Source of the DNA: Salinisphaera orenii subsp. orenii MK-B5
GTDB lineage: Bacteria > Pseudomonadota > Gammaproteobacteria > Nevskiales > Salinisphaeraceae
DNA: 64,000 nucleotides
Direction: 5' to 3'
Assembly: GCF_003788635.1 (NCBI RefSeq)
Contig: NZ_AYKH01000041.1
Coordinates: 1 to 64,000, forward strand
The position numbers were made by a program, and so were the translations under genes. The notes beneath the pieces are model-generated. The model made no database searches and was not told the origin of the DNA. It saw only the letters and a list, made by a program, of their open reading frames with translations. Of this stretch, positions 25,448-58,178 are shown in pieces; within the stretch, counting starts at the first letter, position 1; each line of letters begins with the position of its first letter.

Positions 25448-26211
25448 GCCAGCAGACGCCGAGCGAGGAAGAACAGCCGCTGATGGCGCATCTGCTCGAG
25501 CTGCGCTCGCGCCTGCTGCGGATCGTGATCGGCATCGGCATCGTTTTCGTGCCGATGGCCTATTTCGCGCGCGATCTGTTCACGTTTCTCTCCGGGCCGC
25601 TTCTCGCGCACATGCCGGAGGGCAACAGCCTGATCGCGACCGGGGTCGCCGCGCCGTTTCTGGCGCCGTTCAAGCTGTCGATGCTGCTGGCGGTGGCGGT
25701 CTCGCTGCCCTGGACCCTTTACCAGATCTGGATGTTCATCGCGCCGGGACTCTACGCCCAGGAGCGCCGGCTGGTCACACCCCTGCTGGCCTCCAGCACC
25801 GGGCTGTTCTATCTCGGCATGGCGTTCGCCTACTACGCGGTGTTCCCCGTGGTGTTCGGGTTTTTCATCTCGGTCGCGCCCACGGGCGTGGCGGTGATGA
25901 CCGACATCTCGGCGTATCTGGATTTCGTGCTCGGCATGTTCCTCGCCTTCGGCATGGCCTTCGAGCTGCCGGTGGCGATCTTTCTGATCGTCTGGGCCGG
26001 CTTCGTCACGCCGCGCCAGCTCGCCAGCTATCGCGCCTATGTGCTGGTGGCGGCATTCGCTGTGGGCATGCTGCTGACGCCGCCGGACGTCATCTCGCAG
26101 ACGCTTCTGGCCGTGCCGGTCTATCTGCTCTACGAGGTCGGCATCTGGACCGCGCGGCTTTTCGTGCCGGGTGTGCGCGAGGTCGAGGCGCAGCAGGACG
26201 AGCAGCGCTAG
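25444..26211 (+). CDS. tatC: Sec-independent protein translocase subunit TatC
   Basis: Six-span membrane protein that binds twin-arginine signal peptides. The 255 residues align over full length with E. coli TatC: PLMAHLLELRSRLLR with the conserved Glu/Arg of the first cytosolic part, FIAPGLYAQERRL in the first loop, and GMLLTPPDVISQTLLA near the end. Its TAG stop codon shares its final G with the first base of a repeat element. Confidence 0.96.
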   Translation: MSQQTPSEEEQPLMAHLLELRSRLLRIVIGIGIVFVPMAYFARDLFTFLSGPLLAHMPEGNSLIATGVAAPFLAPFKLSMLLAVAVSLPWTLYQIWMFIAPGLYAQERRLVTPLLASSTGLFYLGMAFAYYAVFPVVFGFFISVAPTGVAVMTDISAYLDFVLGMFLAFGMAFELPVAIFLIVWAGFVTPRQLASYRAYVLVAAFAVGMLLTPPDVISQTLLAVPVYLLYEVGIWTARLFVPGVREVEAQQDEQR

Positions 26212-26504
26212 GCCTGTTAACACTTCATGCGGACGCCGCGTTGGAGACCTCAAATCGTGTTACGCGAGGCGCGAGTCACCGATCGTGGCGCGCCACGATC
26301 AAGACTGGCAACGCCGCAGCGCGCCCATGATTGTTTCATGGGCGGCCCAACCCTTCGGGCCAGGCGCTGTGGTGCGGCAATCCCGCGTTGGCGCAGAAGT
26401 TGGCGCAGAATGACTGCGCGGCGCGCACGACGCCTCGTCCTGCCGCCCCTGATCAATTTTTCAGGAAACGCCTGGCGCGGGCTCGCATGAGGTGTTGGCA
26501 GGCC
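26211..26504. repeat. Dispersed inverted-end repeat, copy A (294 bp, with insert)
   Basis: The ends form a terminal inverted repeat: the first 16 bases (GGCCTGTTAACACTTC) and the complement of the last 16 match at 13 positions, the three differences being C/T changes. The interior carries a perfect 20-bp palindrome at 26281-26300. About 190 bp of it aligns with copy B at 57989-58178; the extra ~104 bp lies after about 26325. It begins on the last base of the tatC stop codon and codes for no recognisable protein. It looks like a MITE-type or other non-autonomous element; GGCCTGTTAAC-type ends recall some IS5-family ends, but that is inference. Confidence 0.8.
26318..26426. repeat. Insert within repeat copy A with 12-bp tandem duplication
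   Basis: A segment of about 102 bp absent from copy B, flanked by 7-bp near-identical sequences AGCGCGC (26318-26324) and GGCGCGC (26420-26426). It holds a 9-bp perfect hairpin around 26322-26344 (CGCCCATGA and TCATGGGCG) and a perfect 12-bp tandem duplication GTTGGCGCAGAA at 26387-26410. The flanking repeats would fit an insertion into a copy-B-like ancestor, though deletion from B is also possible. Confidence 0.6.
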
Positions 26505-26602
26505 CTGGTGTCGTTCGTGTTCCGGGCCTACGGGTTAAGTGCGGGTTCATGGCACGGCGTTATGTTCCGCGTTGAATTCCATTCCGACACAGAGGCACCG
26601 CC

Positions 26603-27073
26603 ATGTTCAGGAAGACAGCGATCGCAATCGGGCTCGCCATGGCCGCCGGTGGCGGCAGCGCGATGGCCCAAGACAGCATGCAGAACAGCGGCGAGCGAAA
26701 CGCCGGCGCCGAACGTCAGACTCAGATGAGCGAAAGCGCGCTGCACACGCGCTTCGACGCGCTCGATGCCAACGGCGACGGCGTGCTCAGCCGGTCGGAG
26801 GCCGCCGACAGCGAGGAGGTCGCCGAGATCTACGATTCGCTCGACACGAGTGCGACGATCGAGGACCGCGAAAGCCAGAGCAGTCCCGGCGGCATCACCT
26901 TCGAGCAGTTCCAGGCCGGAATGCAGGCCCGCGGTGCCGGTGTGGTCGGCCCCGCGGTTTCCGGCGGCCAGACCTATATCATCATGCGCGACGGCACGCG
27001 TCGGCTGAAGGATCCGGACGCTCGGCCGGGCGGCGACAGGTCGCAGGATGCTGAAACCCGCTGGGACGAGTAG
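26603..27073 (+). CDS. Exported EF-hand protein
   Basis: A 156-residue predicted periplasmic or secreted protein. An Ala-rich signal peptide (1-22, cleavage after AMA) is followed by a polar region and one canonical EF-hand loop at residues 55-66 (DANGDGVLSRSE), with Asp55, Asn57, Asp59, Ser63 and Glu66 placed to bind Ca2+. A second, degenerate hand may lie near GGITFEQFQAG. The C-terminal part is Gly/Arg/Asp rich. No close family recognised; a calcium-binding envelope protein is the safe call. It stands alone between repeat A and a terminator. Confidence 0.78.
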   Translation: MFRKTAIAIGLAMAAGGGSAMAQDSMQNSGERNAGAERQTQMSESALHTRFDALDANGDGVLSRSEAADSEEVAEIYDSLDTSATIEDRESQSSPGGITFEQFQAGMQARGAGVVGPAVSGGQTYIIMRDGTRRLKDPDARPGGDRSQDAETRWDE

Positions 27074-27184
27074 TCACCGTCTGGCCGGCGCCGTATGCTG
27101 CGCTAGCGGTTCGACCGGCCGTGACGGGACACCAAGTCCACGCGCGGCGCGCGGCCGTTAGCTGATTTGATGCTTCGACGCATG

Positions 27185-27213
27185 AACGCCCGCGGCGTGC
27201 CGCGGGCGTTTCT
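27185..27213 (+). terminator. Rho-independent terminator of the EF-hand gene
   Basis: A perfect 11-bp stem (AACGCCCGCGG with CCGCGGGCGTT) with a 4-base loop, followed by TTTCTC. It lies 111 bp after the EF-hand stop codon. Confidence 0.82.
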
Positions 27214-27417
27214 CGTCGTGACGCCGATACTCGGCGAATCGGCGGAGTTTCCCATTCGATATCACGGTCGGCCCGTCACGGCTGCGGATCGCGTGCGGCA
27301 TCGAATAGGTGCGATGCGCACATGGCCGTTGTCGCGGCCGATATTCGTCCCGGCTCGGGCTGCGGCGGGAGGGTGCTCGATTCCGCGGATCGCCGGACGG
27401 CCCCGATAGCGGCCATG

Positions 27418-27445
27418 AAAAAACCCGGCGCATGGCCGGGTTTTT
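27418..27445. terminator. Terminator of the Gln-rich exported protein
   Basis: CCCGGC and GCCGGG form the stem with a 5-base loop; AAAAAA precedes and TTTTT follows, so it can act in both directions. It lies 23 bp beyond the stop codon of the minus-strand gene. Confidence 0.87.
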
Positions 27446-27467
27446 CGCGAGCAGTTAGGGCTTGAGA

Positions 27468-28055
27468 TCAGCCGCTGCCGGGGGACTGGCCCGGGGCGGG
27501 CGCCTGACCGGACTGCGGCATCTTCGACTGCAGCTCGGAGCGCAGCGAATCCATCTCGTCGAGCAGATCCTGCGTGTTGCTGTTCTGCTTCTTCATGGCC
27601 GCAAGCGTGTCTTCCTGCAGCTGCTGACCGGCCGACTGGATTTCCGGCTTCTGCATGACCTTGTTACGGGCCTGTGTCATCTCCTGGCGCTCGGCCTGAA
27701 AATCCTGCATCACCGCCTTGCGCTCGGACTGGTCGAGATCGCCGGACTGCATCTTCTGCGCGAGTTCCTGAACCCGCTGCTGGCCCTGTTCGACGTCGTA
27801 GCCCTCGTCCTCGACGGCCTGACGAACCTTCTTCTCGAACTCTTCCTGCTGGGTGGCCAGCTCCGGATTGGCTTCGATGGTTTCCTTGTGGATCTGCTGC
27901 AGGCGCGACGCCTTCTGGCGGTACTGCTGCATCAGTTGCTGGGCTTCCTGCTGATCGGCGCCGCCGGCCGCCGCGCCCTGCGCGTTGGCCGTCGTGGCAC
28001 TGAAGGCGATGGCGGCCAGCGCCACGGCGAGAGTGGATGTTACACGTTTCATCAT
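27468..28055 (-). CDS. Exported Gln-rich helical protein of unknown function
   Basis: From the ATG at 28055 (or 28052) this is a 195-residue protein with a clear signal peptide (MKRVTSTLAVALAAIAFSATTANAQ) and a mature part dominated by Gln, Glu, Lys and Ala in long predicted helices or coiled coil (for example QQEAQQLMQQYRQKASRLQQIH, shortened here in meaning, and EFEKKVRQAVEDEGYDV). It ends in a Pro/Gly/Ser tail. I do not recognise the family; the character is that of small periplasmic helical proteins such as DUF4168 or Spy-like chaperones, without a diagnostic motif. It is a single gene with its own terminator. Confidence 0.75.
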   Translation of the reverse strand: MMKRVTSTLAVALAAIAFSATTANAQGAAAGGADQQEAQQLMQQYRQKASRLQQIHKETIEANPELATQQEEFEKKVRQAVEDEGYDVEQGQQRVQELAQKMQSGDLDQSERKAVMQDFQAERQEMTQARNKVMQKPEIQSAGQQLQEDTLAAMKKQNSNTQDLLDEMDSLRSELQSKMPQSGQAPAPGQSPGSG

Positions 28056-28130
28056 AGGTCTATCCGTCGAGTGAATGTCGTGTGGACCTGATCTGACAAC
28101 GTTCAAGGTTATCAGTGCCGCAGCAGGCGC

Positions 28131-28844
28131 TCAAAAATCCGGCTTTCCGGAGGCGAGCCGGTCAGCGACGCGGGTCGTCTCCGGAAGGCGGTAGCGGGTC
28201 AGCGCCTGCAGGGTCCAGGCAATCGCGTTGTCGAGGTCCACACGATGCCCGGGCGAGATGAAGATTGGCTTAACGCGCTCGCGCGAGCGCAGGACGGCGC
28301 CGATCACGGTTTCGCCGTCGTAGAGCGGGGTCCAGGCGCCGCGGCGCTCCGGGGCCGGGCCGTGCGTTCCGGTCAGACGCTTCTTGGCGACGCCAATGGT
28401 CGGCCGACCGGTGACCAGGCCGAGGTGGGTCGCCACGCCGAGGCGGCGCGGGTGGGCGATGCCATGACCGTCGACCAGGATCAGATCCGGCGGCGTCTCA
28501 AGCGCCTCGAGCGCGGCTAGCGCGCCGGGGATCTCCCGGAACGACAGCAGGCCGGGGATGTAGGGCATCCGCGTCGGCACGCGCACGAGCCGGCGCTCGC
28601 GTACCGCCAGCGTGGTGGCATCCAGCACCACGGCCGCCGCGCGCGTGGTGCGGCCGCCGTCCTCGAAGCCGATGTCGACGCCGCCGAGCGTCGCCACCGG
28701 GCCGGTATCGTGGCGGGTGTCGACGCGGTCGGCCAGTTCCCGCTGCAGCGTCCGGCAGGCGCGCGCGTCCTGGGGCCAGTCGTGGTCGAGGCAGATGCGG
28801 CCGTCGGTGGTCTGGCGACGGACGACGCCGGGTGTGTCCGGCAT
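28131..28844 (-). CDS. nfi: Endonuclease V
   Basis: Nfi cleaves DNA near deoxyinosine and other deaminated bases. The 237-residue protein starting at ATG 28844 has the family motifs GGVDIGFE (first metal Asp), RMPYIPGLLSFRE (the P-Y-I-P wedge that recognises the lesion), and DLILVDGHGIAHPRRLGVA with further acidic metal ligands, then GVAKKRLTG. It starts 7 bp after mntR and is likely cotranscribed with it. Confidence 0.95.
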   Translation of the reverse strand: MPDTPGVVRRQTTDGRICLDHDWPQDARACRTLQRELADRVDTRHDTGPVATLGGVDIGFEDGGRTTRAAAVVLDATTLAVRERRLVRVPTRMPYIPGLLSFREIPGALAALEALETPPDLILVDGHGIAHPRRLGVATHLGLVTGRPTIGVAKKRLTGTHGPAPERRGAWTPLYDGETVIGAVLRSRERVKPIFISPGHRVDLDNAIAWTLQALTRYRLPETTRVADRLASGKPDF

Positions 28845-28851
28845 CCGTGCC

Positions 28852-29346
28852 TCAGTCGTCCTGCGCGCCGTCGCGGTCGTCGGCGAAACGACGCATGATC
28901 TCGATGGTTTCGGCGCTGACGTGGTGCTCCACGCCCTCGGCGTCCTTGCGCGCGGTGGTCTCCGGCACGCCCAGGGCACGCAGGAAGCGCAGCACCACGA
29001 TATGCCGGTCGCGTGATTCGCAGGCCATGCGCTTGCCGTCTTCGGTGAGGAAGATGGAGCGATAGGGCTCGCTGGTCACCAGGCCGGCGTCGGTCATGCG
29101 GCGGATCATCTTGCCGACCGTGGCCTGGGTCACGCCCATGCGCTGGGCCAGCTCGACGGCGCGAGCCTCGCCCTTGGCATCGATCAGATCCGCGATGAGC
29201 TCGACATAGTCCTCGATCAGCTCGGTCTCGTGCGCCTTGCGGACATAGCTGTACTGGCGCGCGTGGTCGGCGGGGTCGAGCAGCTCCCCGGAGGTATCCG
29301 CACGCAGGACGTGGTCGAGATCGTTTGCCGTGCGTTCTGCGTTCAT
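28852..29346 (-). CDS. mntR: Manganese-responsive regulator MntR
   Basis: DtxR/MntR-family repressor that represses Mn uptake genes when Mn2+ is bound. The 164 residues have an N-terminal extension, a winged HTH (AVELAQRMGVTQATVGKMIRRM, about 66-88) and a dimerisation/metal domain with ESRDRHIVVLRFLRALG and DAEGVEHHVS, which hold the expected His/Glu ligands. There is no C-terminal SH3-like domain, as in MntR rather than DtxR. Neither mntH nor mntP is in the window, so its targets are elsewhere. Confidence 0.92.
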   Translation of the reverse strand: MNAERTANDLDHVLRADTSGELLDPADHARQYSYVRKAHETELIEDYVELIADLIDAKGEARAVELAQRMGVTQATVGKMIRRMTDAGLVTSEPYRSIFLTEDGKRMACESRDRHIVVLRFLRALGVPETTARKDAEGVEHHVSAETIEIMRRFADDRDGAQDD

Positions 29347-29356
29347 CGTGCTTCGA

Positions 29357-30205
29357 TTATACCGTGTCGTCGCGACCCTGCGGGGCCGGGTGGAGGGCTG
29401 CGATCACCGCCCGGGTGTCCGGGCGCACGCCGCGCCAGAGATGGAAGGACTCGGCCGCCTGCTCGACGAGCATGCCGAAGCCGTCGCACCGGCGGGCCAC
29501 GCCGTGGCGTTCGGCCCAGCGCAGAAACGGTGTGGGCGCATCGGCGTAGATCATGTCGTAGGCGGCGGTCGCACCCGCGATCGCTGCTGCCGGCAGATCC
29601 GGCATGCGCCCGGCCAGTCCGGCCGATATGGCGTTGATCACCAGGTCCCAGCCGCCGCCGATGCCCGCGAGCCCGCCGGCGTCGACGGGCCCCAGGTCGG
29701 TGAAATCGGCGGCGATGGCCTCGGCCCGCTCGGCGGTGCGGTTGGCGATGTAAAGATGTTTCGGGCCCTGTTCGAGCAGAACGGGGACCACCCCGCGCAC
29801 GGCGCCTCCGGCCCCGAGCACCAGCACGCGACGCCCCTCGATTGGTGTGCTCAGACGACCGGTCAGGTCGCGCAGCAGGCCGACGCCGTCGGTGTTGTCG
29901 CCGTGGATGCGGCCGTCGTCGCAGCGGATCAGCGTGTTCACCGCCCCCGCACGCTCCGCGCGCGCCGAGAGCGTGGCGGCGTAGGCGGCGGCCGCCTGCT
30001 TGAAGGGCAGCGTCACGTTCAGGCCGCGGCCGCCGTCGGCGAAAAAGCGCTCGACCGTGGCGGTGAAGGCGTCCTCGGCGGCGGGCAGACGCGTGTAGGT
30101 CATGCGCTGACCGGTCTGTTCGGCGAACATGGCGTGGATCGCCGGCGACCGGCTGTGGTCGACGGGGTTGCCGATCACGGCGTAGCGGTCGGGTTCGTCG
30201 GTCAT
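29357..30205 (-). CDS. aroE: Shikimate dehydrogenase
   Basis: NADPH-dependent reduction of dehydroshikimate in the chorismate pathway. The 282 residues from ATG 30205 contain YAVIGNPVDHSRSPAIHAMF (substrate Ser pair), GLNVTLPFKQ with the catalytic Lys, GDNTDGVGLLRD with the catalytic Asp, and the NADP motif LVLGAGGAVRGVV; NRTAERAE marks the NADP preference. The ATG overlaps the waaF stop (ATGA). Confidence 0.96.
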   Translation of the reverse strand: MTDEPDRYAVIGNPVDHSRSPAIHAMFAEQTGQRMTYTRLPAAEDAFTATVERFFADGGRGLNVTLPFKQAAAAYAATLSARAERAGAVNTLIRCDDGRIHGDNTDGVGLLRDLTGRLSTPIEGRRVLVLGAGGAVRGVVPVLLEQGPKHLYIANRTAERAEAIAADFTDLGPVDAGGLAGIGGGWDLVINAISAGLAGRMPDLPAAAIAGATAAYDMIYADAPTPFLRWAERHGVARRCDGFGMLVEQAAESFHLWRGVRPDTRAVIAALHPAPQGRDDTV

Positions 30206-31293
30206 GGAGCAGGCTCCTCGGTAGCGGCAGACGGCGGCGCGGCCCGGCCGGCCGCGTAGTGCAGCGAGGGCAGCGCCCGCGCCTCGGGGTTCAGGCAGGC
30301 GTGCATTACATCGGCGACCGGGATATCGCGCATGCACGCGTTGTGGCCCAGCGGGCAGACCCGCTCGCGACAGGGCGCGCAGGCCAGGCCCAGCCAGAAG
30401 CGGGCCTCGGCCGGGGCCAGCGGCGGCGCATAGTCGGGATGCGTGGCGCCGTAGATGGCCAGCACCCGTGGTGCGGTGGCCGCGGCCAGATGCATCACAC
30501 CGGTGTCGTTGCCGACGAAGGCATGGGTGAGCGAGGCCAGGTCGGCGATGTCGACCAGTGAGGTGCGTTCGCACAGGTTCATCCCGTGGCGCGGCGCGGC
30601 CGCGGCGATGCCGGCGGCGAGATCGCGGTCGGCGGCGCTGCCGAAGATCCATACCGCGATGCCGCGCGCGTCGAGCGCCTCGGCCAGGCGTGCGAAGTGG
30701 GTCGCCGGCCACTGTTTGGCGCCGCCGTAGGCGGCGCCGGGCGCGAAGCCGACGGCGGGTCGGTCGCGGTCCAGCGCCAGCGAGGCCGTCAGTGCCGAAC
30801 GGCGCTGCTCGTCGATCGACAGCCGCGGTAGCTCGACCTCGCCGAGCGCGTCGCCCTCGTGTTCGAGGCCCAGCAGCGCGTAGTGCTCGACCTTGCGGGG
30901 ATAGCGCGTGGCGTCGAGCGTGCGCACATCGTTGATCAGGCCGTAGCGGAGTTCGCCGCGATAGCCGGTGCGCTGTGGAATGCCGGCCAGCCAGGGCACC
31001 AGCGCGGCCTTGGCGCTGCGCTGCATGACGATCGCCTGGTCGTAACGGCCGCGCAGGGCGTGCGCGGCGCGCCGGCGGGCGCCCCAGGCGAACTCGCGGT
31101 GGGCGATGTTGAGCGGCACCGCCGCGTCGATTTCCGGCATGCGGGCGACCAGCGACGCGGTGACGTCAGGGGCCAGCACATCGATGCGCGCCTGCGGCAG
31201 GCGTCGGCGCAGCGTCTTGAACAGACCCTGCGCCATGACCATGTCGCCGATCCAGCTCGGGCCGACGATGAGTATGCGCGGGCTGTCGTTCAT
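30202..31293 (-). CDS. waaF: ADP-heptose:LPS heptosyltransferase II
   Basis: GT9 glycosyltransferase that adds the second heptose to the inner core of lipopolysaccharide. The 363 residues from ATG 31293 (AGGA ribosome site) start RILIVGPSWIGDMVMAQGLFKTLRR and contain VGFAPGAAYGGAKQWP and FVGNDTGVMHLAAATAPRVLAIYGATHP, the donor-binding motif of the family. Three Cys in the C-terminal part (CAPCRERVCPLGHNACM) match other WaaF. It is the first clear LPS gene of the 31-51 kb glycan region and is followed by aroE. Confidence 0.93.
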   Translation of the reverse strand: MNDSPRILIVGPSWIGDMVMAQGLFKTLRRRLPQARIDVLAPDVTASLVARMPEIDAAVPLNIAHREFAWGARRRAAHALRGRYDQAIVMQRSAKAALVPWLAGIPQRTGYRGELRYGLINDVRTLDATRYPRKVEHYALLGLEHEGDALGEVELPRLSIDEQRRSALTASLALDRDRPAVGFAPGAAYGGAKQWPATHFARLAEALDARGIAVWIFGSAADRDLAAGIAAAAPRHGMNLCERTSLVDIADLASLTHAFVGNDTGVMHLAAATAPRVLAIYGATHPDYAPPLAPAEARFWLGLACAPCRERVCPLGHNACMRDIPVADVMHACLNPEARALPSLHYAAGRAAPPSAATEEPAP

Positions 31294-31449
31294 GTGTCCT
31301 GCCGCTCCATGGCGATCGACCCCGAGGGCCGCCAATCGTAACCGAATCCGGTGCTGTGATCGGGCGCGACATCGTCGCGATCCCGGTGCTGCATGGCCGC
31401 GGCGGGCTACGGCGGGCGCTCGGGGCCGGCGGCACGACCGGTTCGTCGC

Positions 31450-32535
31450 TCAGGCGGGTTCCGAGTGCGCGGGCGCGGCAGCGTCCGCGCGCTGGCGAAC
31501 GGCGCCTTCCCGGGGTCGGAACAGAAGAAACGCATGCAGCGACAGCAAGGGAAAGATCCAGGTCCAGGAGCTGATCGTCTTGCTGTGCTCGTGGGTGTAG
31601 ACCGCCGGTGTGAACACGCAGATCCAGTAGACGGCCACCGCGAATACGCCGGCGTAGGCATAGGCGGTCGCGCCGCGGCGGGCGTAGGCGAGGAACGCCG
31701 TGGCGACGGCCAGGCCCCAGCCGGCCGCCGCGCAGAACAGGCCGAACTTGCGCTCGGCCTCGTACAGCTCGTTGTCGCGCAGATGCAGGAAGGTGGCGCC
31801 CACGGAGAGCACCACGATCGCCGCCAGCGCCAGCACCACCGACAGCGTCGGCCGCTGCGCGGGACGACGAACATCGCAGACCGAGATCGCCGCCAGCACG
31901 AACAGACTCCAGCCCAGCAACTCCAGCGGTTCCTCCGCGTTGCCCACGACGCGGGCGACCGGTGCCAGAACCGATTCGTCCAGTTCCTGTTCGAACACGT
32001 TCTGGAACTGTATCGCGGTGGTGTGGTCTCCCAGCGAGCCGATGAACGCGACGAAACAACCGGCTAGCAGGAGCACGATCGGCGCGTAGGCGCGTCGCAG
32101 CAGCAGTTCGATGCCCAGCCATACCAGCAGGATGATCAGGAACTGGGGCCGCAGATCGTCGCGTATCGCGTTGTTCTCACCCACGAAGGCGATGAGGAAG
32201 AGCATGCTGAACACGATCGCCACGCGGCTCAGGCGCCGATCGCCGTCGATGTACGTCAGCAGCGCCACAGTCACGCCGAGCAGACACAGGACCAGCGACA
32301 TGACTTCGCTGAGCAGGAACTCGCCGCCGTCGACCGGCAGATAGATGGTCGCGCCTCCCGCCACGCAGGCCGACAGCCCCGCGCCGGCGACGCAGCCGGC
32401 GTGAATGGCGAGAGCGGTGACCGTGATCACGATCACGCCCGCGGCCAGCCCGATCCGGTTGACCGGTCGGCTTCGGGGCGCAGCCCGTGACGCCTCGGTG
32501 TGCGGATATCGGTCGAACGCGGATGTTTGTACCAT
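31450..32535 (-). CDS. Ten-span inner-membrane protein of unknown function
   Basis: A 361-residue protein with about ten predicted membrane segments (near 28-48, 72-95, 103-118, 131-148, 150-168, 207-222, 232-250, 267-286, 291-310 and 321-338) and polar ends. I see no motif of O-antigen ligase, polymerase or flippase families. Its site, 156 bp upstream of waaF and divergent from the GT4 genes, suggests a role in the envelope glycan system, but this rests on position only. The N-terminus before the first span is long and the start may lie at M1 or later. Confidence 0.72.
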   Translation of the reverse strand: MVQTSAFDRYPHTEASRAAPRSRPVNRIGLAAGVIVITVTALAIHAGCVAGAGLSACVAGGATIYLPVDGGEFLLSEVMSLVLCLLGVTVALLTYIDGDRRLSRVAIVFSMLFLIAFVGENNAIRDDLRPQFLIILLVWLGIELLLRRAYAPIVLLLAGCFVAFIGSLGDHTTAIQFQNVFEQELDESVLAPVARVVGNAEEPLELLGWSLFVLAAISVCDVRRPAQRPTLSVVLALAAIVVLSVGATFLHLRDNELYEAERKFGLFCAAAGWGLAVATAFLAYARRGATAYAYAGVFAVAVYWICVFTPAVYTHEHSKTISSWTWIFPLLSLHAFLLFRPREGAVRQRADAAAPAHSEPA

Positions 32536-32622
32536 GTGCGTCTTGCTTTCAGGGGATGGCTTGGATGAAAAAGCTTAATATGGCGCGAAATTGCGCGGTC
32601 TGAACGCAAATTTAACAGAAAA
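32536..32622. promoter_or_regulatory. AT-rich divergent promoter region of the glycan cluster
   Basis: This 87-bp gap between the ten-span membrane gene and the first GT4 gene is strikingly AT-rich for the window, with GAAAAAGCTTAATATGG around 32566-32583 and AAATTTAAC further on. Divergent promoters are expected here; TTAATAT is a plausible -10 for the plus-strand operon, without a well-spaced -35. Confidence 0.4.
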
Positions 32623-37936: not shown

Positions 37937-38037
37937 GCCGTGGCGGATGATACGCGACCCCGACGACAGCGGCTGACGCGGCGCGGTCGGCTCGTTGCGT
38001 GGCCACGGCCCGCGCGATTCCCGCGAGACTTGGCACC

Positions 38038-47567: not shown

Positions 47568-47765
47568 CAACGGCGGATCGAGGCCCGGTCTGCCGCGGCC
47601 GGCAGGGCATCGATCCGGCTCGCCGGGCACGGCCCGGGCGTTGCCTGCCGGCGACCGGGATCGAGCGCCGTGATCCACGCGCATCGGCGTGAATCCGCAC
47701 CCGGGTTGCAGCCCCGGCGGCACAGGCTTGCTAGAATGGGCTAACGATTATTTAACGCTGTCTTC

Positions 47766-48632: not shown

Positions 48633-49489
48633 GTTCGCCGCGGATCCCTGGAGCCGCCGAGGACGTCCCCGCGGCCAACCGCTATCTCGAGCCGCGTTCG
48701 CTGCCGCGGCGGCTGCGACACCAGCGCCGTGATCTCATCTGGCGGGCCCGGCTGCGTTTCGGGTCGGTCTACGGCAGGCGCGACGCCGCAACCCGACCGG
48801 ATCCGGCCTGCCCGGAACTGGCGGTGGGCGCGGTCGCGATGGGCGACAAATACGCCGACTGGTGTCTGACCATGATCACCTCGCTGCGCGATCGCGGGGC
48901 GTATCAAGGGCCGATCTACGTCATCACCGACCTGCCCGAGCTTTTCGAGCCGCTGGATAACGTCGTGGTCGTCCACGCGCCGCCGGCCGGAAACCGGCTG
49001 ATCGCCAAGGGCTGCAAGCAAGTGCTGATGCACTACGTCAGCGAGCCGGTGTTCCTGTATCTGGATTCCGATCTCGTGGTCGCCTCGCCGCTGGCGGCGT
49101 GGTACGAAACCATGAAGCCGGCCCTCGCGACGTGGCCGCTGCTGTGCTATTCGAACGACAAGCCGGTCGACAACGCCTATCACGGCGGCGTTGTCCTGGT
49201 GGACATGAAACGGGGGATGCCGATCGTCGAACGATGGGAGAAGGTCGTGCGCAGCGGCCGCTGGCAGTCCGATCAGACCTGTCTGTACAGCGTGGCCGGC
49301 CCGGACGGTCCCGGCCATTTTCCGGATACGGGCTTCATACTGCTGCGCTATCTGTTCGACGGGGCCGGCGCCGAGGCGTGCATCGTTCACGTCACCAACA
49401 AGGTGATCCGCGAATATCCGCGTGAAGAGGTCCAGCGCTACCTGTCGCAGGAACTCGGCGTCACGCGGCTGCCGCAGTCGTTCGACTGA
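48629..49489 (+). CDS. GT-A fold glycosyltransferase, paralogue 2
   Basis: A 286-residue paralogue of the preceding gene: the basic start RRLRHQRRDLIWRARLRFG, KYADWCLTMITSLRDRGAYQGP, the DxD motif in FLYLDSDLVVASPLAAWY, and IVHVTNKVIREYPREEVQRYLS. It overlaps the upstream gene by ATGA and is followed 37 bp later by a GT4 gene. Tandem duplication is likely; donor sugar unknown. Confidence 0.78.
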   Translation: MSSPRIPGAAEDVPAANRYLEPRSLPRRLRHQRRDLIWRARLRFGSVYGRRDAATRPDPACPELAVGAVAMGDKYADWCLTMITSLRDRGAYQGPIYVITDLPELFEPLDNVVVVHAPPAGNRLIAKGCKQVLMHYVSEPVFLYLDSDLVVASPLAAWYETMKPALATWPLLCYSNDKPVDNAYHGGVVLVDMKRGMPIVERWEKVVRSGRWQSDQTCLYSVAGPDGPGHFPDTGFILLRYLFDGAGAEACIVHVTNKVIREYPREEVQRYLSQELGVTRLPQSFD

Positions 49490-49526
49490 GGCGTCCGCGC
49501 GGCGCGCCCAACGGATTCGTCACGGC

Positions 49527-50768: not shown

Positions 50769-50775
50769 GCGGGCC

Positions 50776-51714
50776 TCAGCCGTGTGTCGCGATCGCGTCC
50801 GCGCGTTCGCGGGGCACGCAGAACACGAGGTTGTACTTGGAGCGGTGGGGCTCGGCCAGCGGTGTCAGCAGGGTCAGGCGGTGCTTGGGCGCCGCGGTCT
50901 TGATGCGGCCGTTCTGGCCGCGCGCCGCCGGCACCAGCAGCGCGTAGTCGGGCAGTAGCGCCCGCAGCGCGTCGAAGCCGCCCTTCGTGCGCATGGTGTC
51001 GGTCAGCCACTCCATGAAGATCACCGGCCGGTCGCGTTCGAGCGTTCGCTCCAGCCCGCGGAGCACGTCCAGCTCGTGGCCTTCCACGTCGATCTTGATC
51101 GCGGCCACGAAGGGGGCGAAGCGGGGCAGGAAATCGTCGCCCCGTGCGATCTCGACCTCGATGCGTTCGCCGCCCGGCCGCTTTTTCTCAAGCCCCGACG
51201 CGCCGGAGTTGCCGGCATTGTTGGGATAGAACGCAGCCGTTCCGGTATGCGCGGACAGGCCCATGCGGATCGGCTCGATCCCCAGCGACGGATTGTCGTG
51301 TGCGTTCTGCTGCAGCAGTCGAAAGGACACGGGGTTGGGTTCGAAGGCGTAGGTCTGCCGGTAATGCGGGGCCAGCGCCAGCGCGTAGTTGCCGAGATTG
51401 GCCCCGATATCGAGAAAACAGCCCTCGACATCGGTGAAATGACGGCGGACCAGCGCTACGAACGGCTGCTCGGTAAAGCCGTTCTTGAGCATCTCGCGGC
51501 CGACGCGATCGCCCGCATCGACGGTGATCCGGCGCCCGGCGTGGGTATAGGTCGTCTGACCGCAGGCGGCCAGTGAGCGATCGAGAAATGCCAGTCGGTC
51601 GAGCCGCCGAAGCAGCGAGCGCCGGACCGCCGGCGACAGCGCGCGCAGGCTGCGCGCGATGGCGAGCCCGGTTCTACCGCTCACGAGAGGGCACGCCGGG
51701 ATTCGAGAGCGCAA
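50776..51714 (-). CDS. FkbM family methyltransferase
   Basis: A 312-residue SAM-dependent methyltransferase: FLDIGANLGNYALALAPHY is the SAM loop, AFEPNPVSFRLLQQNA the ribose-binding region, and IKIDVEGHELDVLRGLERTL the FkbM signature, with PVIFMEWL further on. FkbM proteins often methylate sugars or polyketides; next to glycosyltransferases a sugar O-methyltransferase is likely. The start is uncertain (TTG 51714 given; GTG 51684 possible). It is convergent with the last GT4 gene. Confidence 0.85.
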   Translation of the reverse strand: MRSRIPACPLVSGRTGLAIARSLRALSPAVRRSLLRRLDRLAFLDRSLAACGQTTYTHAGRRITVDAGDRVGREMLKNGFTEQPFVALVRRHFTDVEGCFLDIGANLGNYALALAPHYRQTYAFEPNPVSFRLLQQNAHDNPSLGIEPIRMGLSAHTGTAAFYPNNAGNSGASGLEKKRPGGERIEVEIARGDDFLPRFAPFVAAIKIDVEGHELDVLRGLERTLERDRPVIFMEWLTDTMRTKGGFDALRALLPDYALLVPAARGQNGRIKTAAPKHRLTLLTPLAEPHRSKYNLVFCVPRERADAIATHG

Positions 51715-51775
51715 TCCAAAAATGAGCCCGTCGCGCGGCGATCATCGTGCATGGTCGGACTCGAGGCGGGGATGA

Positions 51776-51800
51776 GACGCCGGGCCGGCGGCCCGGCGTC
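51776..51800. terminator. GC-rich hairpin after mdh
   Basis: A perfect 11-bp inverted repeat (GACGCCGGGCC with GGCCCGGCGTC) and a 3-base centre, 12 bp beyond the mdh stop codon. There is no U-tract, so it may be a weak or factor-aided terminator. Confidence 0.5.
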
Positions 51801-51811
51801 GACGCGGCGGA

Positions 51812-52783
51812 TCAGAGCAGATCGGCGACGGCTTCGCGCTCGCCGCGCAGCTCGTCTTCCGTGGCTTTCATGCGCTCACGGCTGAATTCGTCGATCTCCA
51901 GATCCTGGACGATCTCGTAGTCGCCGTTCCGGCAGATGACGGGATAGGAGAACATGATGCCTTCGGCGACGCCGTAGCTGCCGTCGGAGGGAATGCCCAT
52001 CGAAACGATGCCGTCCGAGCCCATCACCCAGTCGCGCATGTGGTCGATGGCGGCCGAGGCCGCCGAGGCCGCACTCGAGGCGCCACGGGCTTCGATGATC
52101 GCCGCGCCGCGCTTCTGCACGGTCGGGATGAAATCGTTCTCGTACCAGTCGCGGTCGACCAGATCCAGGGCGGGCTTGCCCTTGACGGTGGCCTTGCTGA
52201 TGTCCGGATACTGGGTCGCGCTGTGGTTGCCCCAGACCATCATCCGGTCGATGTCGGTGACGTGGGCATCGGTCTTCTGGGCCAGCTGCGACAGGGCGCG
52301 GTTGTGGTCCAGCCGCATCATGGCGGTGAACTGTCTGTTGTCCAGATCCGGTGCGTTGGCCGCGGCGATCAGCGCGTTGGTATTGGCCGGGTTGCCGACC
52401 ACCAGTACTTTCACGTCCTTGGAGGCGTTGTCGTTGAGTGCTGCGCCCTGGACCGAGAAGATGTCACCGTTGGCCTTCAGCAGGTCCGAGCGTTCCATGC
52501 CCTTGCCGCGCGGCTTGGAGCCGACCAGCAGGGCGATGTCCACGTCCTTGAACGCTTCTTCGGGCTTGTCGCTGCCGGAGACGCCGTGCACGAGCGGGAA
52601 GGCGCAGTCGTTGATTTCCATGATCACGCCCTTGAGCGCGTCCATGGCCGGCGGGATTTCGAGCAGCTGCAGAATCACCGGCTGGTCGGGGCCCAGCATG
52701 TCGCCGGCGGCGATGCGGAAGATCAGCGAATAGCTGATGTTGCCGGCGCCGCCGGTGATGGCTACGCGTACAGGTTCTTTCAT
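51812..52783 (-). CDS. mdh: Malate dehydrogenase
   Basis: NAD-dependent oxidation of malate to oxaloacetate. The 323 residues from ATG 52783 (AAAGGAG ribosome site) begin [22 protein letters not shown], the NAD loop, and contain [29 protein letters not shown] with the substrate Arg and catalytic Asp, and [12 protein letters not shown] with the catalytic His. This is the longer, cytosolic-type Mdh of Pseudomonas relatives and Actinobacteria rather than the 312-aa E. coli form. It is divergent from the lipid operon across 229 bp. Confidence 0.95.
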
Positions 52784-53012
52784 GGCTGCTCCTTTGCGAA
52801 GGTCGTCGATGCCTGGGCCCTGAGCGCGTCGCCGACGCCCTCCGGCGATCGCCGACGAACGGGCGGATCGCGCGACGGCGCGGCGGGCCGGGCTTGAAAA
52901 ACGCGGCGTAGAGCATAGCCCAAACACGAAACCGGGTAAAAAGGCATCCACCCGCGCGGGCGCGCCGTATGACCGCCCTTTGGCGGCAGTTTCCGGTCAC
53001 AGGACGAACCAC

Positions 53013-54269
53013 ATGCAGCGAATCGCCATCGTGGGCAGCGGCATCGCCGGGCTGGGCGCGGCCTGGCTGCTGCGCGAACACGCGGATGTCACGGTGTTCG
53101 AAGCCGAGGCGCGCGCCGGCGGCCACGCCCATACGGTGATGGCCGGCACACAGCCGGTGGATACTGGCTTCATCGTTCTTAACGACCGGAATTATCCGTA
53201 TTTTCAGTCGCTTCTGGCCGAGCTCGAGGTGCCGACCACGGCCAACGACATGTCCTTCGGCGTATCAATCGCGGGCGGCGCGATCGAGTGGGCGGGCGAT
53301 AGCTGGCGCACGCTGTTCGTTCAGACGCGGCTCATCGCCGATGCCGCGCACTGGCGCATGCTGGCCGACATCCTGCGCTTCAATCGCCAGGGCAAGCGCC
53401 TGATCGCGAACGACGCGCTGCCCGACGAGCCGCTGGGCGCGTTCCTCGACCGAAACCGCTACGGCCGCGCCTTCGCCGCGCGTTATCTGCTGCCCATGGC
53501 TGCGGCGATCTGGTCGACGCCGGCCGCCGGCATGCGCGATTTTCCGGTCGCGCCGTTCCTGCGCTTCTTCGACAACCACGGGCTGCTGGATATCAGCGAT
53601 CGGCCGCAGTGGCGCACGGTCGCCGGCGGCAGTCAGCGCTACGTGCAGGCGATCGCCGCCGAGCTCGGCCCGCGCCTGCGGCTGGATTGCGCGGTCACCG
53701 GCGTCGAGCGCGACGCCGCCGGCGTGCGTGTGACGACCGCCCGCGGCGACGACGCGCACTTCGATCAGGTCGTGTTCGCCTGCCACGCCGATACCACCCG
53801 GGCACTGCTGGCCGGGCCGTCGGCGGCCGAGCGGCGACTGCTGTCGGCGTTCACCTTCCAGCGCAACCGCGCGATCCTGCACACCGACCCCGCCCTGATG
53901 CCGCGCCGGCGCGCGGTCTGGTCGTCCTGGAACTATCTCGCCGATCGCGATGCGGTCTCCGATCAGCGCGTTGCGGTGACGTACTGGATGAACCGGCTGC
54001 AGTCGATTGCCGGCGCCACCGACTATTTCGTCAGTCTCAATCCGCTGATCGAACCGGCGGCCGGGCGCGTCATCCGCGAGCTGACCTACGACCATCCCGT
54101 GTTCGACGGCCGCGCGGTCGCGGCCCAGCGCGAGCTGGACACGATCCAGGGCGCGGGCGGCGTCTGGCACTGCGGCGCCTGGTGCGGCTACGGTTTTCAC
54201 GAGGACGGTCTCGCGGCCGCGGTCCGCGTGGCCGAAGGGCTGGGTGCGCGCGTGGCCTGGCGTCGGTGA
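53013..54269 (+). CDS. FAD-dependent NAD(P)/FAD oxidoreductase (amine oxidase-like)
   Basis: A 418-residue flavoprotein of the amine oxidase/FAD-linked desaturase superfamily. It starts IAIVGSGIAGLGAAWLLRE (dinucleotide-binding GxGxxG) with FEAEARAGGHAHTV after it, and ends with a second FAD contact WHCGAWCGYGFHEDGLAAAV. An AGGA ribosome site precedes ATG 53013. Homologues are encoded with DUF1365 and Cfa-like genes and act on membrane lipids, possibly as the oxidoreductase in furan or unsaturated fatty-acid formation. It is first of a coupled four-gene operon. Confidence 0.87.
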   Translation: MQRIAIVGSGIAGLGAAWLLREHADVTVFEAEARAGGHAHTVMAGTQPVDTGFIVLNDRNYPYFQSLLAELEVPTTANDMSFGVSIAGGAIEWAGDSWRTLFVQTRLIADAAHWRMLADILRFNRQGKRLIANDALPDEPLGAFLDRNRYGRAFAARYLLPMAAAIWSTPAAGMRDFPVAPFLRFFDNHGLLDISDRPQWRTVAGGSQRYVQAIAAELGPRLRLDCAVTGVERDAAGVRVTTARGDDAHFDQVVFACHADTTRALLAGPSAAERRLLSAFTFQRNRAILHTDPALMPRRRAVWSSWNYLADRDAVSDQRVAVTYWMNRLQSIAGATDYFVSLNPLIEPAAGRVIRELTYDHPVFDGRAVAAQRELDTIQGAGGVWHCGAWCGYGFHEDGLAAAVRVAEGLGARVAWRR

Positions 54270-55036
54270 TGGCGGCACATGCGCTCTACATCGCCCGCAT
54301 CATGCACCGAAGGCCGGGTGCGCCGCGCTATGGTTTCGGCTACCGGGCGTGGTACCTGCTGCTGGACATCGACGCGATCGACGCCGCCTGCGCGGCCACG
54401 CCGCTGCTCTCGCGCAATCGTTTCAACTGGCTGTCGTTCCACGACGCCGACCACGGCCCGCACGACGGCAGTTCGCTGCGGCCCTGGCTGGAGGCGCTGC
54501 TGGCCGATCGCGGCGTGACCCTGGCCGGCGGCCGCGTGCGCCTGCTGGCGATGCCGCGGGTGCTCGGCTATGGCTTCAATCCGCTCAGCCTGTTCTACTG
54601 CGAGCACGCCGACGGGGGGCTGCGCGCGATCGTCGCCCAGGTCCACAACACCTTCGGCGAGCATCATTTCTATGTGCTCCACGCCGATGGTGCGGCAATG
54701 GGTTCGAGGGTCACGGCGGACAAGGCCAAGCGGTTTCACGTCTCGCCCTTTCTCGATCGTGACGGCCGCTATCGCTTTCATTTTCTGTATCCGGACGAGC
54801 GCCTGGGCGTGGGTATCCGGCTGTACGACGACAGCGGTCAGACGCTGCGCATCGCCACCACGCTGACCGGCGAGCGCCGACCGCTGACCACCGCCGCTCT
54901 GCTGCGGGCCGCGCTGGCGCGGCCGCTGCTGCCCTTCAAGGTCATCGCCGCAATCCACTGGCAGGCGCTCAAGCTCTGGCTGCGCGGCGCCGGCTATCGC
55001 CCGAAACCCAAACCGCACGACTCCAATGTGTCCTGA
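54269..55036 (+). CDS. DUF1365 family protein
   Basis: A 255-residue protein of DUF1365, almost always encoded between an FAD oxidoreductase and a Cfa-like methyltransferase, as here. It has the family features HRRPGAPRYGFGYRAWYLLLD, LGYGFNPLSLFYC, VAQVHNTFGEHHFYVL and KRFHVSPFL. Function is unknown; a role in lipid modification is inferred from context. It overlaps the flavoprotein gene by TGATG and the Cfa gene by 11 bp. Confidence 0.88.
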   Translation: MAAHALYIARIMHRRPGAPRYGFGYRAWYLLLDIDAIDAACAATPLLSRNRFNWLSFHDADHGPHDGSSLRPWLEALLADRGVTLAGGRVRLLAMPRVLGYGFNPLSLFYCEHADGGLRAIVAQVHNTFGEHHFYVLHADGAAMGSRVTADKAKRFHVSPFLDRDGRYRFHFLYPDERLGVGIRLYDDSGQTLRIATTLTGERRPLTTAALLRAALARPLLPFKVIAAIHWQALKLWLRGAGYRPKPKPHDSNVS

Positions 55037-56276
55037 AGCCGTCATGCATTCGAGCCACCGCGCGACCAAGCAATCCGGCCGGCCGGCGACCTGGCGCGAG
55101 CGTCAGGTCGTCAAACGCCTGGACCGGCTGCACACCGGTCGCCTCGAGGTCGCGCTGCCCGGCGGCTCGCTGGCGCTGTTCGTCGGCCGCCGGCCGGGGC
55201 CGAGCGCGGCCCTGCGCATCGTCTCGCCGCGCATGGTCACGCGCCTGTTCAAGGCCGGTTCCATCGGCTTCGCCGAAGGCTATATGGCCGGGGAGTGGGA
55301 CACGCCGGATCTGGCCGCGCTCATCTATCTGCTGCACCTCAACGAGGATGCGCTGGAGCCGGATTTCTCGCGCCTGCAGCATCTGTATACCGCGATGAGT
55401 GCGGTGCGGCACCGCCTGCGCCGCAACTCGCGCCGCGGCGCGCGGCGCAACATCGCCTATCACTACGATCTGGGCAACGACTTCTACGGCCTTTGGCTGG
55501 ACGAGACCTGGACCTATTCCTCGGCCCTGTTCGCGCATCCGGAGGAGGATCTGGCGAGCGCCCAGCGGCGCAAGTACGCGCGCCTGCTGGCCCGGCTCGA
55601 CGTGCAGCCGGGCGACCGCATCCTCGAGATCGGCTGCGGCTGGGGCGGGTTCGCCCGCTACGCCGCCCGCCAGGCCGACTGCCACGTCACCGGTCTGACG
55701 CTGTCCACCGAGCAGCTGACCTTCGCCCGCCGGGCCGCGACCGAGGCCGGGCTGGAACAGCAGCTGGACTTCCAGCTGCGCGATTACCGCGACGTCGACG
55801 AGCGCTTCGATCACGTCGTCTCCATCGAGATGTACGAGGCCGTGGGCGAGCGCTACTGGCCGGACTACTTCGGTGCGATCTTCCGCGCGCTCAAACCCGG
55901 CGGGCGGGCCGCGATCCAGGCGATCACGATCGACGACAGCCGCTTCGACTACTACCGCGCGAACGTGGACTTCATTCAGGAGTACATCTTTCCGGGCGGC
56001 ATGCTCGCCTCGCCGGCCGTGTTCGAGCGCGAGGCCGCCCGAGCCGGGCTGAACGTGCGCGAACGCGACTTCCACGGCCGCGACTATGCGCGCACGCTCA
56101 TGCGTTGGGACGCGCGCGTGGTCGCGCGCGGCGCCGAGATCGAGGCCCTGCACGGGGCGTCGTTCCTGCGCATGTGGCGCTACTATCTCGCCTACTGCGC
56201 GGCGGGTTTCACCTCCGGCAACATCGATCTCATGCAGATCGCGCTCGAGCGTCCGATCGGGGAGAGCGCCCGATGA
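55026..56276 (+). CDS. Cyclopropane-fatty-acyl-phospholipid synthase family methyltransferase
   Basis: A 416-residue SAM-dependent methyltransferase of the Cfa family, acting on unsaturated acyl chains of membrane phospholipids. It has the Cfa N-terminal domain, HYDLGNDFYGLWLDETWTYSSALF, the SAM motif LEIGCGWGGFARYAA, LTLSTEQLTFARR, IEMYEAVGERYW and FIQEYIFPGGMLAS. The start may be 55026 or 55044. With DUF1365 and the flavoprotein it forms a conserved lipid-modification set; it may methylate rather than cyclopropanate. It overlaps the MFS gene by ATGA. Confidence 0.9.
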   Translation: MCPEAVMHSSHRATKQSGRPATWRERQVVKRLDRLHTGRLEVALPGGSLALFVGRRPGPSAALRIVSPRMVTRLFKAGSIGFAEGYMAGEWDTPDLAALIYLLHLNEDALEPDFSRLQHLYTAMSAVRHRLRRNSRRGARRNIAYHYDLGNDFYGLWLDETWTYSSALFAHPEEDLASAQRRKYARLLARLDVQPGDRILEIGCGWGGFARYAARQADCHVTGLTLSTEQLTFARRAATEAGLEQQLDFQLRDYRDVDERFDHVVSIEMYEAVGERYWPDYFGAIFRALKPGGRAAIQAITIDDSRFDYYRANVDFIQEYIFPGGMLASPAVFEREAARAGLNVRERDFHGRDYARTLMRWDARVVARGAEIEALHGASFLRMWRYYLAYCAAGFTSGNIDLMQIALERPIGESAR

Positions 56277-57607
56277 GCGCGGTCGGCTATCGCTGGCCGA
56301 TGCTGTCGGCCTATGGCGTACTCGGTCTGCCGCTGGCCGCGCTCGGTCTGCCGCTGACGGTGTATCTGCCGCCGTTCTATTCGGAGATGTCGGCGCTCAA
56401 CACCGGCCTGGTCGGCGTGCTGATCTTCGCCGCGCGCCTGTTCGACGTGATCACGGACCCGCTCATCGGCACCGCCTCGGATCGCCTGACGACGCGTTTC
56501 GGCCGGCGCCGGCCGTTCATCGCCCTCGGCGCGCCGCTGTTGATGCTCGCCGCCTGGTTCCTGTTCGTGCCTGGCGCGGACGCGGGCGCGGCCTACCTGC
56601 TGGTCTGGAGCATGCTGGCCTATCTGGGCTGGACCCTGATCTATCTGCCCTACACCACGCTCGGCGCCGAACTCTCGGCGGACTACGACGAGCGTTCGCG
56701 TATCACCGCCTGGCGCGAGGGATTTTTCGTGCTGGGGACGCTGGTGGCGATCCTGCTGCCGGCGCTCGCCCAGCGCGCGGCCGGCGACGCGGCCGCGGGG
56801 CTGGCGGCGATCGCGGTGTTTCTGCTGGTGGCCCTGCCCATGGCCACGGCGCTGTTCATCTGGCGCGTGCCCGAGCCCGCGGGAAGCCGGGCCTCGCATA
56901 TCCGCTGGGCGCAGAGCTGGCGGCTGCTCGCGGCCAACGCCCCGTTCCGGCGCCTGCTGATCGCCTATCTGTTGAACGGCGCGGCCAACGGCCTGCCGGC
57001 GGCGCTGTTTTTGTTCTTCGTGATCGGCATTCTTGGCGGCAGCGAGGTCACCGGCGGCGTCTTTCTGGCCATCTACTTTCTCTCCGCGGTGCTCGGGCTG
57101 CCGCTGTGGCTGCGCATCGGCCGCAACTGGTCCAAGCATCGGCTCTGGTGCGCGTCCATGCTCTGGGTGAGCGCGGTGTTCGTGTTCACGGTGACGCTGG
57201 GCGAGGGCGACTATATCGGCTACGGGCTGATCTGCGTGCTCGGCGGCAGCTGCCTCGGCGTGGATCAGGCGATCGCGGCTTCGATCCAGGCGGATGTGAT
57301 CGACGAGGATACGGCGGCCGGCGGCGACGGCCGGGCGGGGCTGTACTTCGGCCTCTGGGGCATGGCCACCAAGCTGGCCTTCGCGATCGCGCTGGGCATC
57401 GCCTATCCGATGCTCTGGCTGGCCGGCTTCGAGGCCGGCGGCGACAACGACGCCACCGCGCTGTGGACGCTCGCCGTGCTCTACGGCCTGCTGCCGGTGG
57501 CGATCAAGCTCGGCGTGGTGGCGTTGATGTGGCACTTCCCGCTCGACCGGCGCCGCCACGCCGAGCTGCAGAGCGAGATCGGCCGGCGGGAACCCTCGAG
57601 CAGCTGA
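56273..57607 (+). CDS. MFS transporter, GPH-like
   Basis: A 444-residue inner-membrane carrier of the MFS_2/GPH (glycoside-pentoside-hexuronide:cation symporter) kind with about twelve membrane spans. DPLIGTASDRLTTRFGRRRPF is the loop 2-3 signature, and YTTLGAELSADYDERSRITAWRE is another conserved region. Its coupling to the Cfa gene (ATGA) suggests it serves the lipid pathway, for example by lysophospholipid or precursor transport, but substrate is unknown. It ends the operon that began at 53013. Confidence 0.86.
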   Translation: MSAVGYRWPMLSAYGVLGLPLAALGLPLTVYLPPFYSEMSALNTGLVGVLIFAARLFDVITDPLIGTASDRLTTRFGRRRPFIALGAPLLMLAAWFLFVPGADAGAAYLLVWSMLAYLGWTLIYLPYTTLGAELSADYDERSRITAWREGFFVLGTLVAILLPALAQRAAGDAAAGLAAIAVFLLVALPMATALFIWRVPEPAGSRASHIRWAQSWRLLAANAPFRRLLIAYLLNGAANGLPAALFLFFVIGILGGSEVTGGVFLAIYFLSAVLGLPLWLRIGRNWSKHRLWCASMLWVSAVFVFTVTLGEGDYIGYGLICVLGGSCLGVDQAIAASIQADVIDEDTAAGGDGRAGLYFGLWGMATKLAFAIALGIAYPMLWLAGFEAGGDNDATALWTLAVLYGLLPVAIKLGVVALMWHFPLDRRRHAELQSEIGRREPSSS

Positions 57608-57988
57608 GTCACTCGGGCCGTCTCCGATCGGTCAGCCGCGCTCGCGCCGACGCCCGAGCCCGCGGGCCGGCACGTAGGGCGATGAAACGTGCCGAGGGCA
57701 CGCGAACGCCGTACCTTCGCCGAAAGCGGCTGAGCCGGGTGTGTTGCGGGTGCGGCCCGGAATGCGGGCGCGGCCCGCTGAAGCCTGTGAGGTGTCGTTT
57801 CCCGGCGCGTCGCTGCACTCGCCGTCGTGCGCACGCGCCCGGAGCAATGCCGTAAGAAAGCCTGGCCTGGAAGATCTCCGCCGGCCGAGGCGGCGTCGCA
57901 GCCTCGCCGCGTCCGGCCCGGCGCCTGCGTTCGCGGCGCTCGGGACGGAAGTGCGATCCGTGCGGCCGGAACGGGCGTATCGCTCCTG
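57608..57988. other. 381-bp gene-free stretch before repeat B
   Basis: After the MFS gene I see no credible coding region: the short open frames are Arg/Pro-rich and lack any family pattern or ribosome site. No clear terminator is visible. The stretch may be decayed sequence; it ends where repeat copy B begins. Confidence 0.55.
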
Positions 57989-58178
57989 GGCCTGTTACAC
58001 ACCATGCCAACGCCGCGTTGGCGACTGCATAGCGTGTGCGGCAAGTCGCGAGTCGCCGATTGGGGCGGGTCACGATCCAGACTGGCGATGCCGCGGCGCG
58101 CGCGACGCCTCGTCTTGCTGCCCATGGTCCATTGTCAGGAAGCGCCTGGCACGGGCTCGCAGTAAGCGTTAACAGGCC
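57989..58178. repeat. Dispersed inverted-end repeat, copy B (190 bp)
   Basis: It aligns with copy A at 26211-26504 over almost its whole length except A's insert. Shared blocks are ACGCCGCGTTGG, GCGAGTC, CACGATC, AGACTGGC, GACGCCTCGTC, AGGAA, CGCCTGGC and CGGGCTCGCA. The right end, read in reverse, is GGCCTGTTAACGCTTA, nearly the left end of copy A. The last base pair of the element is part of the sco stop codon. The palindrome seen in A is decayed here (58058-58077). It codes for nothing recognisable. Confidence 0.8.

Follow-up and report, generated by a model that had tools for sequence, protein, structure and literature searches.

Two related repeats, copies A and B, abut the stop codons of tatC and sco in a 64,000-nucleotide stretch of Salinisphaera orenii subsp. 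orenii MK-B5 (contig NZ_AYKH01000041.1, positions 1 to 64,000; hereafter the window). They are very probably decayed copies of a miniature inverted-repeat transposable element (MITE) that has no transposase of its own and has most likely been moved by a transposase of the IS5 type. The original prediction had paired the two repeats and placed each at a gene end; both lie where it put them and can be aligned with one another, and both contacts are confirmed. The TAG of tatC occupies 26209-26211, and its G at 26211 is also the first base of copy A. The TAG of sco, read from 58180 to 58178 on the minus strand, shares its last base, 58178, with the right end of copy B. Comparison of ends across the family reveals terminal inverted repeats, which are imperfect in copies A and B. 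The features are as follows; G and L numbers below are our handles for genomes and loci.

25444..26211, plus strand: tatC (gene call; name from the original prediction; orthologues compared)
26209..26211, plus strand: TAG stop of tatC, fused to the first base of copy A
26211..26504, plus strand: copy A, 294 bp and nearly full length, lying between the stop of tatC and the gene that follows
26211..26233, plus strand: left terminal inverted repeat of copy A, GGCCTGTTAACACTTCATGCGGA
26238..26359, plus strand: arm I of copy A with the small junction hairpin (CCCTTCGGG); limits read by eye
26360..26479, plus strand: arm II of copy A; limits by eye
26480..26504, minus strand: right terminal inverted repeat of copy A
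57988..58178, plus strand: copy B, an internally deleted element (about 191 bp)
57988..58012, plus strand: left terminal inverted repeat of copy B; limits by eye
58154..58178, minus strand: right terminal inverted repeat of copy B
58178..58180, minus strand: TAG stop of sco, last base in common with copy B
58178..58786, minus strand: sco (gene call; name from the original prediction)

Family size and anatomy

With copy B as query, 63 pieces at E ≤ 10 were recovered from its own genome and grouped by hand into 40 places. These roughly 40 places, with matching ends, answer the check set by the original prediction, that further copies be sought in the genome. Its picture of a mobile repeat with inverted ends, many copies and variable presence in relatives is likewise supported, both by this search and by one of the genus, in which 13 of 14 genomes matched the short query B and 14 of 14 a full-length query.

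The element begins with G followed by GGCCTGTT, ends with AACAGGCC followed by C, and is located at the TA within CTAG. Full copies, of about 255-307 bp, comprise an inverted end, arm I, a tiny CCC..GGG hairpin, arm II and the other inverted end. Shorter than 600 bp, present in many copies and devoid of a transposase gene, the family has the size and coding content of a MITE. The left and right ends of a given copy change together from one variant to another. Because full-length copies measure about 255-307 bp and copy B lacks the middle, what had been described as a 190-bp core carrying an insert in copy A proves instead to be a deletion in copy B; copy A as an insert carrier is thereby ruled out. 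The complete genome G008 also holds shorter forms of 164 bp (L046), 82 bp (L045) and 54 bp (L107); the two smallest (L045, 478-560; L107, about 1544-1598) stand beside CTAG and are nearly nothing but inverted ends.

Target site

Edge statistics were taken from two sets of copies: 41 paired copies of G008, drawn from about 100 of 135 ends listed (the full set is larger), and 15 copies of the window genome, those with both ends recognised among the first 30 loci fetched. Copy A is among the 15, and copy B, whose left end fails the pattern, is excluded. Counting the base next to GGCC as -1, the G008 edges have G at -1 in 78/78, A at -2 in 70/78, T at -3 in 55/78 and C at -4 in 65/78; two spurious pairings (L099 at 420, L114) were excluded before these 78 edges were counted but still stand within the 41 copies used for stop contact. 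The more decayed copies of the window genome retain G at -1 in 23 of 30 edges and C at -4 in 21 of 30. These statistics support the suggested insertion at CTAG-like targets, and from its flanking bases the element is best read as G GGCC...GGCC C with TA as its insertion site, preferably the TA of CTAG. The suspected short target duplication would take a modified form: two base pairs, TA, fit the G008 edges best, the outer G and C being assigned to the element. Alternatively, the duplication may be of 4 bp, CTAG; the single comparison of a filled and an empty site (tatC end, G003 versus G007) is compatible with both.

Several flanks count against insertion into TA. One-sided CCAG/CAAG flanks are common, and L056 3438 (CGAG/CTCG) and L094 (CGCG) are inconsistent with TA. 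Some of the one-sided flanks derive from a second insertion sequence, and the rest are unexplained decay. This second sequence, an IS110-family element (L101: PF01548, PF02371), adjoins a MITE end precisely and lies within the CT of its CTAG. It does so in four G008 copies (L101 1773, L111 1570, L113 1536 and L044 525; far boundary compared in three) and in one copy of the window genome, G000 (L006 1350). In the last case G012 provides the matching empty site (L272 1310), and the filled site has CT/AG on both sides. The guide RNA of the IS110-family element may direct it to the MITE end.

Contact with stop codons

Genes were called with a codon-usage gene caller written for this analysis. An edge lies on a gene stop in 10 of the 41 listed G008 copies and in 9 of the 15 copies of the window genome, and both edges do so in two and one of these, respectively; a random junction would be expected to meet a stop about 0.15% of the time (0.0015). 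The stop is TAG in all ten G008 contacts; in the window genome L030 has only TAA, and L026 has TAG on one side and TAA on the other. CTAG itself is scarce: base composition predicts 1326 occurrences in 400 kb of G008, and 135 are present, a tenfold depletion. Among CTAGs outside genes and elements, 15 of 89 serve as a stop in the 400 kb of G008 and 17 of 24 in 138 kb of the window genome (six loci within the window or repeating another were skipped, and 13 central CTAGs were set aside). Relative to these sites, copies of the element show no excess of stop contact (Fisher p 0.34 in G008 and 0.51 in the window genome).

Contact with stop codons is thus explained by CTAG targeting, with insertion at CTAG and survival outside genes: CTAG, depleted tenfold, frequently serves as a stop codon, and the element's first G rebuilds TAG. 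Since the element begins with G and ends with C, insertion into a CTAG stop restores TAG in both directions. The proposal that a gene-end structure causes the contact is left unsupported by a rate equal to that of other non-genic CTAGs. The case illustrates a simple rule for how a mobile element comes to lie at gene stops: its target palindrome is rare in nearly all other places, and the element itself supplies the base with which the stop is re-formed.

The comparison of empty sites that had been called for agrees with insertion at a stop. The tatC gene ends in a bare, element-free CTAG stop in G005 and G007, and a related element with different ends occupies the same CTAG in G003. At this position in G012, a copy is cut off by the end of the contig after 23 bp, and its first bases are not those of copy A, so it may be a separate insertion. 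In G003, G005 and G007, three of the 7 genomes among 14 with a sco match, sco lacks the element and its protein ends at the same residue.

Source of movement

Two genus-mates carry IS5-family insertion sequences of 858 bp, three in G006 and one in G001, whose ends are of this kind and whose flanks are CTAG at either end; in a related 853-bp sequence of G007 one flank is CTAG and the other TTAG. The three transposases scanned, which are of the DDE type, match NF033580 (IS5 family) at E 1.2e-76, 6.9e-74 and 1.6e-79. Moreover, one G006 MITE carries the GGCGTGTTGAGG end variant of this insertion sequence. The IS630 family was rejected as the parent: at 14 loci from 5 of the 14 genus genomes, none has these ends on both sides.

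Based on these data, we propose a probable mechanism. An IS5 transposase would act at the common 16-18 bp ends and insert the element into the TA of CTAG, duplicating TA. Insertion into a CTAG stop would rebuild TAG and so be harmless and survive, CTAG being rare elsewhere. The folded core described below persists in mobile lineages and does not depend on any one set of ends; as to its function, we would guess that it serves to protect or mask the element or its RNA within 3' untranslated regions.

A number of results weigh against movement by this IS5 family. The MITE and its putative parent have only the outer 16-18 bp in common, and two of the three G006 insertion-sequence copies carry one in-frame stop in the transposase. 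A search of the 14 genus genomes for such an insertion sequence came up empty in the window genome, G004, G008, G009, G010, G011 and G013, even though similar copies are numerous in G008 and G013; a single IS5-type gene (L077) was observed in the window genome, and it does not have these ends. Nor did a comparison of the window genome with G012 reveal any movement: at 17 of 22 G012 loci the flanks match those of a copy in the window genome, and the remaining five have no partner among the compared loci, which does not show absence. Since no parent insertion sequence was found in the window genome, the copies there are probably stranded fossils. A search of plasmids with copy B gave no match.

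A folded two-armed core

The minimum-energy fold of a 265-nt G008 copy reaches -189.6 kcal/mol, with z -14.6 relative to 200 shuffles. Copy A reaches z -8.2, and copy B only z -2.65, with two of 200 shuffles as good. Full copies are predicted to form a three-way junction and show massive compensatory change. When the structure of the 265-nt copy was applied to an alignment of 54 of 60 collected copies (L014, L024, L034 1484, L046, L112 and L114 being left out), 90.4% of cells were paired (85.8 in shuffles), 49 pairs had changed on both sides (27.1 in shuffles, SD 2.7) and such changes filled 266 cells (71 in shuffles); a structure derived from one member favours itself on pairing, and less so on compensatory change. 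Pairing fell to 31-39% when partners were slid. RNAalifold found compensatory change in 32 of 63 pairs. Pairing also declines with age, from 92.3% of cells in 37 G008 copies to 84.6% in 13 copies of the window genome.

A covariance model of arm I was built on 28 sequences (28 of 32 arms aligned). Read on the opposite strand, the second arm also fits this model at 28 of 32 loci, a set that does not include copy A, and the element is therefore an inverted dimer. In an alignment of 67 model matches from the 32 loci, 39 of 43 pairs show changes on both sides, in 808 cells compared with 252 in shuffles, figures inflated by the fitting of the alignment to the structure. At least three of the 67 matches overlap another on the opposite strand. 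In class-wide copies, the arm motifs around CAAGGCGC and GCAACGCC are nearly fixed while adjoining pairs turn over. Compared with its sister copies in the same genome, L192 (402-685) has arm II inverted, with the palindromic layout kept.

No Rfam family was found over the element, either in the window at gathering scores or in nine further loci at E ≤ 0.1; at E ≤ 5, L032 and L025 gave only sub-threshold matches to microRNA hairpins over the elements. With no covariance-model match over the element, identity with a known Rfam RNA was rejected.

Occurrence beyond the genus

When the 265-nt G008 copy was used to search the order, 40 of 85 genomes gave matches at E ≤ 0.001, including 26 of the 71 outside the genus; the shorter query B gave no match in 27 genomes outside the genus. 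Cores from the order align well. At E ≤ 1e-4, the arm I model matches 82 of 369 gammaproteobacterial genomes in 64 of 271 genera, three of the 82 belonging to Salinisphaera (strict filters, rough E-values). Seventeen of the class-wide loci outside the genus were viewed, including L222, for which the first stretch shown was not its match. Eight copies from the order and class have z-scores of -11 to -21 (40 shuffles each, own shuffler) and, by eye, the same three-way architecture. Copies also occur on plasmids of Azotobacter chroococcum, Halomonas, Pseudomonas aeruginosa and Ca. Magnetococcus massalia, with no feature listed under the matches; a phage search with L223 returned no match.

Ends and cores can differ sharply in their conservation. 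In G040, one copy with GAACCTATCC ends was compared with six that have GGNCTGTT-type ends (L195, whose ends were not caught, was not included): the ends are 27-29% identical, and the cores 90-94% identical in five comparisons and 80% in the sixth, L192 with its inverted arm II. Ends of the GGNCTGTT type recur in several genomes of the class (e.g. L220, L223, L225, L226 and L261-L263), and others are unrelated to them (e.g. L215, L227, L228 and L230). An outer inverted repeat was found in 31 of 37 non-genus loci; the search returned an inner or wrong pair in L217, L197 and L261 and none in L191, L198, L202, L205, L219 and L221. No parent insertion sequence with the GAACCTATCC/GAGCCTATCC (GARCCTATCC) ends was found in G040, G105, G252 or G359.

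As a pattern in the aligned sequences, a portable folded core with exchangeable ends is well supported, and each set of ends may belong to a different transposase, one family having been matched so far. More tentatively, the two-armed core, an inverted dimer of an arm of about 112 nt, could be a portable module of Gammaproteobacteria that swaps ends and hitch-hikes on different insertion-sequence transposases, a satellite selected for its fold and not its ends. If so, the 82 of 369 sampled gammaproteobacterial genomes would harbour insertion-sequence satellites of a new class and, in their fold, a family of structured nucleic acid that is as yet unlisted. Among open-licence papers we found no description of the folded element, and an earlier one may exist elsewhere.

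Selection and alternative explanations

Across 15 copies that are orthologous in the window genome and G012, 236 of 4318 sites differ (5.5%), compared with 540 of 9742 third codon positions (5.5%) and 451 of 5838 other intergenic sites (7.7%); single copies range from 0 to 22%. Because copies diverge as much as third codon positions, their evolution appears near-neutral in aggregate, with no clear constraint, which speaks against a general host role. Three orthologous pairs (L279/L300, L281/L003 and L273/L010) differ by 13-22%, in two of the three cases well above third codon positions, and look as if one member had been replaced or converted by another copy.

These rates bear directly on whether the element is instead a host-selected gene-end structure, a terminator or mRNA stabiliser placed on stops because it is useful there. 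Such a role would suit the junctions that fall exactly on TAG in many copies, and on both sides in two G008 copies, as well as the very stable fold of copy A and the near identity of L266, L267 and L269 between sister species (0-0.3%, against 3.8-5.5% at third codon positions); sections of two papers on ERIC elements report that those at 3' ends alter mRNA stability (PMC2229807, PMC10969869). We consider it quite improbable nonetheless, given that stop contact is no more frequent than at other non-genic CTAGs, that the 15 orthologous copies diverge like third codon positions and that copy B folds weakly.

The compensatory changes might also arise without selection on a folded molecule, through self-templated correction of an imperfect palindrome during DNA copying. 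This process fits the mirroring of the two ends even in rare variants (L035, L056 9087), the inverted arm II of L192 and the loss of pairing in old copies. It would not alone keep a motif or a constant three-way architecture, however, and the near fixation of the CAAGGCGC and GCAACGCC arm motifs makes it an unlikely source of the pattern. REP sequences occur as inverted pairs, and the REP-associated tyrosine transposase (RAYT) acts on single strands. A REPIN-like element moved by RAYT would share with ours the two inverted arms and TAG-containing flank, but ends and flanks of the same kind as those of a DDE-type IS5 element render this origin highly implausible.

Related elements

IS630 reportedly chooses TA in CTAG (Tenzen and Ohtsubo 1991), the same preferred site, but the IS630-family elements of the genus lack the ends described here. 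To our knowledge, no exchange of ends is known for ERIC/IRU. According to the parts of two papers that treat it, ERIC/IRU resembles the Salinisphaera element in being a palindromic MITE with TA at its ends, found also at gene 3' ends, and is set apart by its description as 127 bp with a stem-loop formed by its ends (PMC2229807, PMC10969869). RUP, likewise a MITE with a TA site and ends matching a resident insertion sequence (IS630-Spn1), differs in its transposase family, its 107-bp length and, in the passages describing it, the lack of such a core (PMC2229807). The RNA of CIR of Caulobacter is drawn with two arms, but that account gives it a linker between them and no terminal inverted repeat (PMC2229807). 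MITEPsy1 of Pseudomonas syringae is paired with ISPsy2 (IS5): short and transposase-less, it inserts at CTAG or YTAA, with a reported 4-nt duplication, and is thought to be mobilised by an IS5-family element (PMC3189936). It thus shares with the Salinisphaera element its CTAG site and presumed mover, but has 100 nt and 18-nt ends of another sequence, and the passages of that paper that describe it mention no two-armed core (PMC3189936).

Further observations

Several contigs of G010, G011, G013, G072 and G279 stop within a copy, which points to nearly identical recent copies that interrupt short-read assembly. A composite element around 870-873 kb of G008 was considered and rejected, the genes between its two solo ends not being transposases. 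About 160 bp from a copy, L025 (1929-2045) has a sub-threshold Rfam match to the P15 sRNA (59.5 bits, cut-off 70; E 2e-10). Host genes lie between facing element ends, by look LysE-like and aldo/keto reductase genes in L041 (1180-3401) and riboflavin genes in L042 (991-4339), possibly as passengers or by chance.

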